DNA from: an uncultured Nitrospirota bacterium
GTDB lineage: Bacteria; CG2-30-53-67
NCBI GenBank assembly: GCA_947259355.1
Contig: CAMYMF010000039.1
Location: 1 to 36,359, forward strand
DNA length: 36,359 nt
Reading direction: 5' to 3'
This document shows positions 19,003-31,830 of the stretch, piece after piece. The position numbers and the translations under genes are program-made. Numbering within the stretch: the first letter of the stretch is position 1; each line of letters starts with the position of its first letter. A model generated the notes under the pieces. That model made no database searches and had not been told where the DNA came from. It saw only the letters and a program-made list of their open reading frames with translations.

Positions 19003-19379
19003 TAGCCCAGATATAGCATGAGCAAATCTACTGCGGGGCCGGACTTGTCACGGCGTAGCATTCTGCGAAGACGGATAAGCTGCCATATGCCGCGTTGCAG
19101 CGAATTTCGCCATCCGGTGGCCCTATACGCAAATGCGCTGGTATTCGAATGCCTTAGCGCACCCTCCTCTGCGTTCCGCTCCCTGCGACGTACCACACAG
19201 GGTACGCCTCAGTCGCGCGCCTTGAGCAGACCACGCTACAACCCTCTCGACACCTCACCATATTTGCAAACAGGACCACTGAAATATTGCAATATGCCTT
19301 CAGCCAGAAAATTCTTTGCGCCTTACCCATGTTGCCTCTACGGCCTCTCGTCACGATCACTCATGCAATATCCGGGCTA
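19003..19379. mobile_element. 377-bp element with imperfect terminal inverted repeats
   Basis: The left end TAGCCCAGATATAGCATGAG (19003-19022) and the reverse complement of the right end, TAGCCCGGATATTGCATGAG (19379-19360), match at 18 of 20 positions. The interior has no convincing gene; open frames in it do not resemble proteins. The size, inverted ends and position between two convergent genes fit a non-autonomous transposable element (MITE) or a deleted IS. No target-site duplication is obvious. It borders the damaged ggt gene and supplies its stop codon. Confidence 0.5.
19341..19379 (-). repeat. Dispersed gene-end repeat, copy B
   Basis: This 39-base copy is identical to copy C (31792-31830) at 36 of 39 positions. 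It begins, on the minus strand, with the TAG stop codon of the ggt gene. It is also the right end of the 377-bp element. Confidence 0.85.
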
Positions 19380-20985
19380 ATATCCAGCGGCCAGGCCGCC
19401 TCGCCGCGGATCGGCCGCCCCGCTGCGCCGACCCGTTACCGGATCCACCACGATACTCGAGGCCGCCCCCAGGGTCTCGCCCACCACCACCCGGTGCCCC
19501 ATTCCCCGCAAGAGGCGCAGCGTATCCAGACTCACTCCCTCTTCCACCGACAGCGCGTCGGGCAGCCACTGATGATGCACCCGGGGTGCATTGACGGCTT
19601 CCTGAATGTTCATGCCGTGGTCGATCACATTCATGATCACCTGCAAGACGGTGGTGATGATTCTCGGACCGCCGGGGCTTCCGGTAATGAGAAACGGTCT
19701 GCCTTTTTTCAGCACGATGGTTGGCGACATGGAGCTCAGCATCCGTTTCTTCGGTGCAATCGCGTTGGCCGCCCCGCCGACCAGGCCGTAGGCATTGGGC
19801 ACGCCCGGTTTGGCGCTGAAGTCGTCCATTTCGTTGTTCAGCAGAAAGCCCGCGCCTTGTACAACGATGCCGGAGCCGAAGCTGAAATTGAGGGTAAAGG
19901 TGTTCGCCACAGCATTGCCCTCCCCGTCGATGACGGAGAAGTGTGTGGTTTCCAAGCCCTCCCGCGGGAGCGCCCCCGGTGCAATGCCGGCCGCGGGGCT
20001 TGCCCGCAGGGGATCGATCTGCTGCCGCAGCGCGACGGCATACCCCTTGGAAACCAGCCAATCCAGGGGCACTGAAAAGAAATCGGGGTCCCCCAGGTAT
20101 CGGGCGCGGTCGGCATAGGCCCGCTTCATGGCCTCTGCCATCCGATGAATCGTCGCCGCGCTGTTGTGGCCGAGCGCACGGCAGTCGTATCCCTCCAGGA
20201 CATTCAGCATCTGGGCGATGTGCACCCCCCCGGAGCTCGGCGGAGACATGGCGTAGATCTCGTAGCCGCGGTAGATAAAAAGCTGCCGGCCCCGTGACGG
20301 CGAGCGCACGCAGGGTCCGGGCGAGTTCTTTTTGCACGAAGCGTTCACCCCGTTCGTAAGGCGTTCCGTCGGATTTGAAAAATACGGCCCGGGTGGCAGG
20401 GCGCTGCCGGAGTCGCTCGGCCATCTCCTGGATGGCTGCACTGAACGCGGGGGAGACGACGAAGCCCGACTCGGCCAAGCGTATGGCCGGAGCCAGGGCC
20501 TGCGCCAAAGAGAGGGTCCCGTATTTCTCCAGGGCCAGCGCGAGACCGGCGACCGTCCCGGGAACGCCGACCGCCAGATGACTGAACCGGCTCAACTCGG
20601 GATCGACCCGCCCCTCTCCATCGAGAAACATGTCGGGCGCAGCCCGGGCGGGGGCCGTCTCCCGATAATCGATGGCGACGACGTCACCGGTTCGCGCGGC
20701 GTAGACCAGCATGAATCCGCCGCCGCCGAGATTGCCCGCCCGCGGATAGGTCACCGCCAGCGCGAAACCAACGGTCACCGCCGCGTCCACGGCATTGCCG
20801 CCGCTTCGCAGCACCCCAAGCCCCGCTTCCACGGCCAGCGCCTCTTCACCGACCACCATGCCCTGGGCGGCCGACACCGGTGTGACGATGTCCCGTTCAC
20901 TCAGAATGGCCGGCTGTCCGGCGGCCGTGACCGGCAGCAGACAGAGCAGGATCAGCAGAGAGCAGACCGAACCCTTTCGGCCCAC
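19377..20985 (-). pseudogene. ggt: Gamma-glutamyltransferase, broken by deletion and frameshift
   Basis: The N-terminal part (from a possible GTG at 20985 with signal peptide CSLLILLCLLPVTAAG) shows GGT motifs such as GGNAVDAAVTVGFALAVTYP, GNLGGGGFMLVY and YRETAPARA. Near 20281 the frame changes. The downstream frame carries the rest: YRGYEIYAMSPPSSGG, the small-subunit start with catalytic threonine in ETTHFSVIDGEGNAVA, NNEMDDFSAKPG and MSPTIVLKKGRPFLITGSPG. By comparison with E. coli Ggt about 40 residues between AFY and YRGY are missing. A deletion that is not a multiple of three explains both facts. The enzyme normally matures by autocleavage in the periplasm and degrades glutathione. An assembly error is the alternative. 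Confidence 0.85.
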
Positions 20986-29108: not shown

Positions 29109-29396
29109 TCACTCGACACGGCCCGCCTCATCGCAATAGCAGGCGTCCGTCTGGTATTTGTCCCAGAGCGCCTTGACGGCTTTCAACTCCTCCAGATGGT
29201 TCAGGATCGGTTCACCCCCCTCGATGACGCGCTCCCCATCGATCAGCACCGGTGCAGCCGCGCCTGCAGGCAGTCCCTTGACGGGCCGTCTGTCAGCCTT
29301 GACGGTCCGCACCTCGTGGGCCAGACAGAGACTCTCAAGGGTCTCTTGAATGGCATCACATTTTCGACAGGGCGCTGTGCGAAAAAACCGGATCAT
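29109..29396 (-). CDS. Glutaredoxin-like small thiol protein
   Basis: The 95-residue protein begins MIRFFRTAPCRKCDAIQETL, giving a CxxC (CRKC) active site at the end of the first strand. It ends in a helical region with ACYCDEA. The glutaredoxin-like fold is inferred from the CxxC and a cis-proline-like segment (AAAPVLIDGERVIEGGEPIL). It is presumably a cytoplasmic thiol oxidoreductase. A strong terminator-like hairpin lies only 32 bases upstream of the start, so transcription may begin or be attenuated there. The ribosome site is moderate. Confidence 0.8.
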   Translation of the reverse strand: MIRFFRTAPCRKCDAIQETLESLCLAHEVRTVKADRRPVKGLPAGAAAPVLIDGERVIEGGEPILNHLEELKAVKALWDKYQTDACYCDEAGRVE

Positions 29397-29427
29397 GACG
29401 ATGCGCTCTTCCCCGGGCTGATCGAAC

Positions 29428-29472
29428 AAAAAACCGCCGTCACCCCCCCACTTGGGTGACGTATACGGCGGT
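29428..29472 (-). terminator. Terminator or attenuator upstream of the glutaredoxin-like gene
   Basis: On the minus strand ACCGCC, a six-base bulge, and GTCACCC pair with GGGTGAC and GGCGGT, followed immediately by TTTTT. This is a strong intrinsic terminator shape. It lies downstream of the histone-like gene but only 32 bases before the glutaredoxin-like ATG, so it may end the upstream transcript or regulate the downstream one. Confidence 0.75.
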
Positions 29473-29578
29473 CTGTTCATCTCACACCCGTCAGCGGGAA
29501 ATGATTATAGCCACAACCGCCCGGGAAAACAAGTGGAATATCCCTTGTACGGAGAGATACCCCCCGGCGCGCACTGGG

Positions 29579-29636: not shown

Positions 29637-29733
29637 CAAAAGAGTCTGTCTCCGACACCGCTGGAGCAATGCCGGAGAGAATGGACCTGTCGGACAGCGG
29701 GGGGAATTTGGAGAGGAAGGTTCGCAAGAGGGA

Positions 29734-29931
29734 TCACGATAAGGTGAAATCGCGGTCCATCACCGTCTTTCTACCGTCGCTTTTTGCATTGCTGATCGCC
29801 CGGTCGCACAACTGGCGAATCATGTCGGAGAGCTGCGGAGCCACGTTGCCGGCCGTATTCAAGCCGGACTCCTCCCTGATGTAATTCTTCAACTTCGAAA
29901 CAACTACCAGCACTTCCTTTTCGCTACCCAT
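29734..29931 (-). CDS. Small bacterial histone-fold protein
   Basis: The 65-residue protein from the ATG at 29931 reads MGSEKEVLVVVSKLKNYIRE, then SGLNTAGNVAPQLSDMIRQL and CDRAISNAKSDGRKTVMDRD. This is the pattern of the short single-histone-fold proteins of bacteria such as Bdellovibrio Bd0055: a lysine-rich first helix, a long central helix, and the conserved GRKTVMxRD segment carrying the Arg-Thr pair and Arg-Asp clamp. Such proteins dimerise and bind DNA. An ATG two codons earlier lies only three bases from AAGGAG, so the second ATG, at eight bases, is preferred. It is divergent from the YbjQ operon. Confidence 0.85.
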   Translation of the reverse strand: MGSEKEVLVVVSKLKNYIREESGLNTAGNVAPQLSDMIRQLCDRAISNAKSDGRKTVMDRDFTLS

Positions 29932-30158
29932 GTTCATTTCTCCTTCTGAAAAGTCGATTGTTGACGGAACCCCTGTTCCGGCGGTGTTTGTAGCAGATCA
30001 ACGTACAAAACACAAGCGAAAAGAGATTGCCGGCGCGCCATCTGGAGCTTCTATGGGGAATCAACCGAGCCTTTGCGCTTGATTCCATGCGCGAGATGGG
30101 ATAAAGTTCGCTCCGTGGCCCCCGGGGAGATCCTGTGGGTCGAAGGGGAGGAAGACCG

Positions 30159-30473
30159 ATGATTCTGACAAATATCGAGACCGTACCGGGCAAAACGATT
30201 GTGGAGCATTTCGGCCTGGTGCAGGGCAGCACCATCCGGGCGAAACACGTGGGTCGGGACATTATGGCCGGTTTGAAGAACATCGTCGGCGGCGAACTGA
30301 AGGGGTACACAGAGCTGATGAAGGAGTCCCGCCGGGAGGCCACCAATCGAATGATTGAAGAGGCCCGCCAGCTCGGGGCGAATGCCATCGTGAACGTGCG
30401 TTATGCCACCTCGTCGGTGGCTCAGGGCGCCGCGGAGCTCTTTGCCTATGGCACGGCGGTGCGTGTCGAATGA
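30159..30473 (+). CDS. YbjQ-family (DUF74/UPF0145) protein
   Basis: The 104-residue cytoplasmic protein has typical YbjQ motifs: TVPGKTIVEHFGLVQGSTIR, RDIMAGLKNIVGGELKGYTE, SRREATNRMIEEARQLGANA, IVNVRYATSSV and AYGTAVRVE. Family members form pentamers and are annotated as putative heavy-metal-binding, though the function is unsettled. AGGGGAGGAAG precedes the start. It is first in a three-gene unit with a second, membrane-anchored YbjQ protein and an M48 peptidase. Confidence 0.93.
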   Translation: MILTNIETVPGKTIVEHFGLVQGSTIRAKHVGRDIMAGLKNIVGGELKGYTELMKESRREATNRMIEEARQLGANAIVNVRYATSSVAQGAAELFAYGTAVRVE

Positions 30474-30506
30474 ATCCCCCGGAAATGATGCAGCAAGAGG
30501 TGTCTC

Positions 30507-30965
30507 GTGGTTGAGCTGGCAATCCTCATCGGTCTCATCGCCGTCGGCTATTTTGCGGGCTCCGCGGCCGAGAGGCATCATTACCGCAGTATCGCCGAGC
30601 GGGAGGAGGCTTTTCTACACCTGCCCGCGATCACTTTCAAGAGTTCCGAGACTCTTGGAGATGTGGCAGAGAGTCGCCTTGTGACCGGATGTGCCGTGAT
30701 CTCCGTGGATTATTTCAAGCGCATTTTGGCCGGTCTGCGCGCGCTGGTGGGCGGTCGCGTCAAATCCTATGAGTCGCTCATTGACCGTGCCCGGCGTGAG
30801 GCCGTCCTGCGCATGAAGGAGGCCGACCCGACCGCCGATATCATCGTCAACACACGCATCGAAACCTCTTCCATCTCCAAGGGACCGACCAACCGGGAAT
30901 CTGTCGGCACCATCGAGGCCCTGGCCTACGGAACGGCGATACACCTGAAAAAGCAAGGGACATGA
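30507..30965 (+). CDS. Membrane-anchored YbjQ-family protein
   Basis: This 152-residue protein starts at GTG (30507) with AGAGGTG upstream. An N-terminal membrane segment (LAILIGLIAVGYFAGSAA) is followed by a divergent YbjQ domain: VISVDYFKRILAGLRALVGG, RVKSYESLIDRARREAVLRM, DIIVNTRIETSSISKG and ALAYGTAIHLK. It is a diverged paralogue of the preceding gene with an anchor added. Its stop overlaps the next ATG by four bases, so translation is coupled to the peptidase. Confidence 0.9.
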   Translation: MVELAILIGLIAVGYFAGSAAERHHYRSIAEREEAFLHLPAITFKSSETLGDVAESRLVTGCAVISVDYFKRILAGLRALVGGRVKSYESLIDRARREAVLRMKEADPTADIIVNTRIETSSISKGPTNRESVGTIEALAYGTAIHLKKQGT

Positions 30966-31768
30966 AATACACGCCCCGCCGGATCACCGAGAATGTCAAT
31001 ATCTCCAAAACGTCTCCCCTACGGGAATTCTTTACCCTGCTGCTCGGCATTCTCGCATTTCTCGTTGGTGTCTATTTTCTTCTCGGACTCGCCGTCAACC
31101 TGATCGCGCCCCGTATCTCGACCGGCCTGGAAGACCGTCTGGCCAGTCTGTTCACCGCCTACTACGCCGCAGAAGAGGCCGAGTCGCCGGTGCAGGCGCA
31201 CCTGCAGGCGCTCCTGGATGACTTGGCCGCAGCGGCCGATCAGCACAATCGGTCCTACCAGGTGCATGTCATTGTCGACCCGATGGTGAATGCCGTAGCC
31301 CTACCCGGTGGGCACATCGTCCTCTACTCGGGTCTGCTCGATCAGGTCCGGTCCGAGAATGAAGTGGCCATGATCCTGGGCCATGAGCTCGGTCATTTTG
31401 CAAACCGAGACCATCTCAAAGGCCTGGGTCGGGGGCTGGTGCTGGTCGCTCTCTCGGCCGCCATCCTGGGCGTGGACAGCAAAGCCTCGCAAATGCTGCA
31501 GTCGCTGCTGGTCACCACCGAAATGCGTTTCTCCCGAAAACAGGAGCTGCTGGCCGATGCCTGGGGGCTGGAACTCCTCGTTCGCAAATACGGGCATGCC
31601 GGCGGCGCCACCGATTTCTTCCGCCGGGTCCACGAAAAGGAAAGGGGAAAACGCTTCGCCTACCTCTTCGCCACCCACCCCTATCCGGAAAAGCGGGTCC
31701 GCTCCCTGGAGATGTTCATCCGAGAACGGCAAATACCCGTGGACGAAACGGTTCCCTTCTCCCGGTAG
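30962..31768 (+). CDS. M48-family membrane metallopeptidase
   Basis: The 268-residue protein has one N-terminal membrane segment (LLLGILAFLVGVYFLLGLAV, residues 26-45) and a zinc protease domain with HELGH at residues 141-145. The third zinc ligand is probably the Glu in KQELLADAWGLELL, and the substrate-side segment is NAVALPGGHIVLYSGLL. The ending FATHPYPEKRVRSLE is typical of M48B/M48C proteins related to HtpX and BepA. It is most likely an inner-membrane protease facing the periplasm. It is last in the operon with two YbjQ proteins, which suggests a joint role. Confidence 0.93.
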   Translation: MKYTPRRITENVNISKTSPLREFFTLLLGILAFLVGVYFLLGLAVNLIAPRISTGLEDRLASLFTAYYAAEEAESPVQAHLQALLDDLAAAADQHNRSYQVHVIVDPMVNAVALPGGHIVLYSGLLDQVRSENEVAMILGHELGHFANRDHLKGLGRGLVLVALSAAILGVDSKASQMLQSLLVTTEMRFSRKQELLADAWGLELLVRKYGHAGGATDFFRRVHEKERGKRFAYLFATHPYPEKRVRSLEMFIRERQIPVDETVPFSR

Positions 31769-31791
31769 TCTCTTCCGCTCGAATGATTCTT

Positions 31792-31830
31792 CGGCCTGTC
31801 GTCACGATCACTCATACAATATTCGGGCTA
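31792..31830 (-). repeat. Dispersed gene-end repeat, copy C
   Basis: This 39-base copy matches copy B at 36 of 39 positions. On the minus strand it begins with the TAG stop codon of the LysE-family gene. It lies between the convergent ends of the M48 peptidase and LysE genes. Confidence 0.85.

Follow-up and report, generated by a model that had tools for sequence, protein, structure and literature searches.

Genes and features at the histone locus

The window, that is, the whole stretch of 36,359 nucleotides analyzed here, carries on its minus strand a 65-codon open reading frame (ORF) at 29734–29931 (stop codon included), as seen in the ORF list and in the sequence itself. The frame begins with the ATG at 29931–29929 and ends with the stop codon at 29736–29734. 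The earlier note had placed a 65-residue product here, which agrees with our examination, and the product carries the motif GRKTVMDRDF. The features of this gene and its surroundings are as follows.

29734..29931, minus strand: gene for an α3-truncated bacterial histone of 65 aa, recognized from the ORF, homology, selection, and the predicted fold
29940..29947, minus strand: ribosome-binding site AGAAGGAG, which precedes the start codon at 29931 by 8 nt and is kept in the congener (genome G001)
29987..30015, minus strand: candidate promoter TTGTGT-17 nt-TACAAA with TGC ahead of the second hexamer, inferred only
29649..29678, minus strand: 13-bp hairpin with a weak T tract, about 55 nt past the histone stop codon; a possible but weak terminator
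29428..29472, minus strand: strong hairpin and then T6, in the interval that separates the histone gene from the next gene on this strand; a similar hairpin occurs in the congener

A second ATG lies in the same frame 6 bases further upstream, at 29937 of the window. In the alignment with the congener, a 1-base difference puts the equivalent ATG out of frame; thus, 29931 is the correct start. The histone protein is 91% identical to its counterpart in the congener, and the aligned genes show 6, 2, and 14 differences at the first, second, and third codon positions, respectively, with a dN/dS of 0.125. Judging from this comparison, the gene is under purifying selection, and the distribution over codon positions is that expected for a coding gene in the called frame. 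On the plus strand, a 142-aa ORF overlaps the histone gene. This frame ends inside the histone gene in both the window and the congener, and it is not required to explain the conservation. Syntenic blocks shared by the two genomes lie between 21 and 33.6 kb in the window, with 77–87% DNA identity, and since G001 is an independent assembly, contamination is argued against. At the histone locus itself, synteny is complete in the congener and lacking in the sister genus.

As for expression, the earlier note had described a clean ribosome site and a terminator of the gene's own, and had regarded the gene as separately expressed. The ribosome site is a good one and also occurs in the congener. The terminator fares less well: the T tract of the hairpin at 29649–29678 is poor, the terminator scan did not pick this hairpin up, and its conservation in the congener is only partial. 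In the candidate promoter, the first hexamer and the TGC are identical in the congener, where the second hexamer is TATTTA; the consensus promoter scan did not list this candidate. Separate expression of the histone gene is plausible from these signals, in that the gene stands alone, is divergent from the ybjQ genes, and is preceded by a good ribosome site as well as a candidate promoter, while the part of the claim that concerns the terminator is weak. The hairpin at 29428–29472 is located about 260 nt downstream of the histone gene and directly ahead of the next gene, and it could either end transcription there or serve as an attenuator for that gene.

The minus-strand region 29396–29515 has a leader-like layout before the gene of a small CRKC-motif protein: a TATAAT box (kept in the congener), the hairpin with T6, and a likely start codon at 29396 follow one another in this order. 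In its layout, this leader looks like a transcription attenuator. The CRKC-motif protein gene downstream of the histone gene gave no Pfam match, and an Rfam search of the whole window, including this leader, gave no match. On the plus strand, 30159–31768 contains two tandem YbjQ-family genes and, directly after them, an M48 peptidase gene; this block is divergent from the histone gene and is syntenic in the congener. Across phyla, no neighboring gene was found to recur except among close relatives, and the neighbors offer no functional clue.

Sequence similarity and predicted fold

In a phmmer search against all PDB sequences, the best match was HBb/Bd0055 of Bdellovibrio bacteriovorus (PDB 8CMP, 8FVX, 8FW7, 9EZZ, and 9F0E) with an E-value of 7.6e-13, and the identity to this protein is 48% across 58 aligned residues. 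The second match was the Leptospira FtF histone HLp (E 4.4e-06). A family-profile search matched HBb at E 5.7e-27 and also the archaeal histones HPhA, HMfA, and HMfB. The scores with curated models are sub-threshold: 16.9 bits for Pfam PF00808 (cut-off 21.4) and 21.7 bits for the archaeal histone model NCBIfam NF043032 (cut-off 50). Therefore, pipelines relying on those models would miss this histone or leave it unnamed. With the Pfam histone model, only 19 of the 66 relatives reach even an E-value of 0.001, and the counts of histone-bearing bacteria obtained from Pfam-type models are for this reason probably too low.

An AlphaFold2 monomer model, built from 66 natural homologues (mean pLDDT 92.6), consists of α1 at residues 11–22, a long α2 at 30–51, and an α3 of three residues at 59–61. 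The top Foldseek matches of this model were HBb structures (best 2.6e-06; TM 0.86–0.90). In the VIA-align comparison, HBb gave Z 9.2–9.8 with an rmsd of 0.8–1.3, HLp (Z 8.0–8.2) and HTkC (Z 7.7) came next, and the nucleosomal archaeal and eukaryotic histones ranked lower, with Z <7. The identities in the structural comparisons are 47–49% to HBb and 34–36% to HLp. The sequence matches and the predicted fold together bear out the proposal that this is a bacterial single-histone-fold protein. In the α3-truncated histone family of Schwab et al. 2024, α3 has only 3–4 residues and the motif RxTxxxxD is present (PMC11390915); our protein has both the three-residue α3 and this motif, as R54-K55-T56 ... 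D61. The shortness of the third helix, on which the earlier note had remarked, is thus a defining trait of the family and no oddity. The archaeal HMfA and HMfB have the histone fold and the RKT...D motif in common with the window histone, which differs from them in its shorter α2 and much shorter α3, at about 20% identity and Z 6.4–6.7.

Counterparts of HBb and FtF residues for DNA contact, clamp, and oligomerization

In the HBb crystal structure, DNA is contacted by T8, S9, and K10 at one interface and by K12, T23, S24, A25, K52, T53, and R57 at the other, while R51 and D58 form a clamp with D49 as a helper (PMC11317129). HBb positions are converted to those of the window histone by an offset of +3. 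Seven of the ten contacts are kept (S12, K13, K15, T26, K55, T56, and R60), and three are changed (T8 to V11, S24 to A27, and A25 to G28). The whole R54-D61 clamp is kept together with the helper D52, and the basic residues of α1 are K13, K15, and R19. Among the dimer-core residues of HBb, L31, I35, and L38 are identical (L34, I38, and L41), and V11 and I59 are replaced by the hydrophobic L14 and F62. The window histone therefore shares with HBb its length, its fold, the tiny α3, the RD clamp with the extra D, the KT motif of L2, the S-K-x-K opening of α1, and dimer-core residues. Besides the three changed contacts and F62, it differs from HBb in carrying the acidic D59 instead of an alanine (A56 of HBb) beside the DNA-contacting R60, in its lower net charge (+1 versus +3 in the HBb segment), in its tree clade, and in the phylum of its host.

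The dimer–dimer contact of the FtF tetramer is made by an Arg six residues and an Asn two residues before the clamp Arg, at the C-terminal end of α2/L2. The corresponding residues are N48 and D52 in the window histone, and D52 is invariant within its clade. Because N48 and D52 stand where the FtF histones have R and N, a tetramer of the FtF type and the accompanying wrapping seem unlikely.

Relatives and distribution

A tree of 68 histone domains, which are short, is mostly unresolved. It nevertheless contains a supported clade (98/93) in which the window histone groups with other stand-alone proteins (26 in all), and most members of this clade share NTxGNVAP in the alignment. Their hosts include Planctomycetota (with anammox genera), Bdellovibrionota, Myxococcota, Eisenbacteria, and the candidate phylum of the present host. 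HBb forms a separate supported pair, and the ZZ histones fall outside the clade, although the tree places the window histone near their histone domains. Among the related loci, ZZ is present in 27, none of which is within the clade. ZZ histones, such as those of B. bacteriovorus (L067) and Haliangium (D0LYE7), share the GRKTVMDRDF core, with 53–72% identity in the rows examined; the near-invariance of DGRKTVMD among the related loci is partly a search bias, because this peptide was a search seed. Unlike these proteins, the window histone belongs to a supported stand-alone clade and has no N-terminal ZZ finger, and its stop-to-stop frame of 87 codons leaves no room for one (C4 and C2H2 sites). 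The identification as a ZZ histone was rejected for lack of this finger. The window histone is thus an α3 histone of HBb-like anatomy that lacks a zinc finger, yet it is no strict HBb orthologue.

The host appears to belong to CG2-30-53-67, a lineage that the literature regards as a candidate phylum and in which genes of sulfur cycling (Dsr) occur (PMC11406059). The histone was found in 4 of the 8 species that the comparison covered for this small phylum. In the sister genus, two genomes have a histone of 73–74% identity at another locus. Four further genomes, of which two represent a third genus and two another family, lack the histone despite a completeness of 94–100%. The main text of the survey that lists the phyla in which bacterial dimer histones occur mentions neither Nitrospirota nor CG2-30; the range of HBb-like histones is thus extended by this candidate phylum. 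Histones of the group also occur in MAGs that bear the names Gammaproteobacteria, Nitrosovibrio, and Lysobacteraceae (L017, L045, and L046); the carriage may be genuine and sporadic, or the bins may be misnamed or contaminated. Relatives of the α3 histones, with 42–44% identity to the window histone, are encoded by two viral contigs, each about 44 kb long (IMG/VR; L143 and L144). The histone gave no match in phage or plasmid collections, and with only distant viral relatives at hand, a mobile origin was rejected.

Probable mode of action

The window histone is, in our judgment, probably an α3-truncated, HBb-like bacterial dimer histone, that is, a dimeric nucleoid protein that bends or coats DNA independently of the sequence beside HU/IHF. 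In the literature, the bacterial dimer category was obtained by sequence (CLANS) clustering, and our assignment is based on the similarity to HBb and on residues: the R and N of FtF histones are absent, and RKT...D and the basic α1 residues are present. It is a genuine and ordinary addition to a family whose description dates from 2023–2025, and no new kind of protein. By analogy with HBb, from which we infer dimerization, DNA binding, bending, and abundance, the α2 helices of two 65-residue chains would lie antiparallel and thereby join the chains. This dimer would then grip the DNA backbone at minor grooves with S12, K13, and K15 at the start of α1, with the T26 region of L1, and with K55, T56, and R60 of L2/α3, while the R54-D61 clamp and D52 would brace loop L2. 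Binding would take place without sequence preference, and the DNA would be bent or coated, alongside HU/IHF. The low net charge and D59 count against this reading. The reports on the HBb protein itself disagree, one describing a straight coating of DNA by Bd0055 (PMC10627809) and the other describing DNA bending (PMC11317129). The genome encodes four HU/IHF-family proteins, and no second histone was found in it, including by a search with the profile A1, which returned the window histone only. The histone therefore need not be the main DNA organizer and may be one of several, a situation different from that in Leptospira, where HU is lacking. An HBb-like histone thus persists beside a full HU/IHF set.

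Other readings were weighed against this one. The sub-threshold Pfam and NCBIfam scores and the 142-aa ORF on the opposite strand could be taken as signs of a spurious ORF or of a chance resemblance to histones. The probability of this is negligible: the matches to solved histones at E 1e-12 or better, the confident histone model, the low dN/dS with dominant third-position changes, and the synteny in an independent genome rule it out and uphold the view of the earlier note that the gene is real. A tetrameric, DNA-wrapping histone like HLp (9QT0–9QT2) and HTkC (9F2C) is very unlikely. These FtF histones are the next-best matches in sequence and fold, and they share the α3-truncated fold, the RxTxxxxD-type L2, and the α1 lysines. 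Residue 64 is moreover a Leu, which corresponds to I61L in the switch mutant of Bd0055, where three changes including I61L (the others to F and H) jointly shifted the in vitro binding mode (PMC10627809). However, the other two switch positions are N48 and S51 here, the Arg and Asn of the dimer–dimer contact are replaced, and the identity to HLp is lower than that to HBb. With the tetramer residues absent, this reading was set aside, and the protein probably forms no tetramer and does not wrap DNA.

There is also a small chance that the protein is related to the ZZ histones but serves as a regulator of low abundance; its zinc finger would have been lost or never acquired, and it would act at certain sites or with partners instead of coating the DNA in general. 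The GRKTVMDRDF core common to the ZZ histones, an identity that is higher to the ZZ histone of B. bacteriovorus (59%) than to HBb (48%), the poor expression of that ZZ histone, and the four HU/IHF-family proteins are in line with this reading. It is opposed by the missing zinc finger, the position in a clade of its own without ZZ histones, the retention of most DNA-contact residues, and the finding that no conserved partner gene adjoins the histone gene across phyla. It is unlikely, too, that the SKLKNYI...NTxGNVAP clade is a distinct subfamily with a DNA geometry of its own, different from both the bending by HBb and the wrapping by FtF histones.

Repeat elements in the window

The window also contains members of a MITE-like repeat family with the ends CATGCAATAT(T/C)CGGGCTA, at 19003–19385 and 31788–31830, and other copies were found at G000:C3:17864-18045 (L139) and L092:4305-4434. 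The termini gave 115 matches in the genome, as compared with 0 for the reversed control pattern, and many of them are arranged as inverted pairs with a spacing of about 182 bp. One copy folds into a hairpin over nearly its full length (−102 kcal/mol). Directly downstream of the histone gene, the congener has a copy at a position where the window has none.
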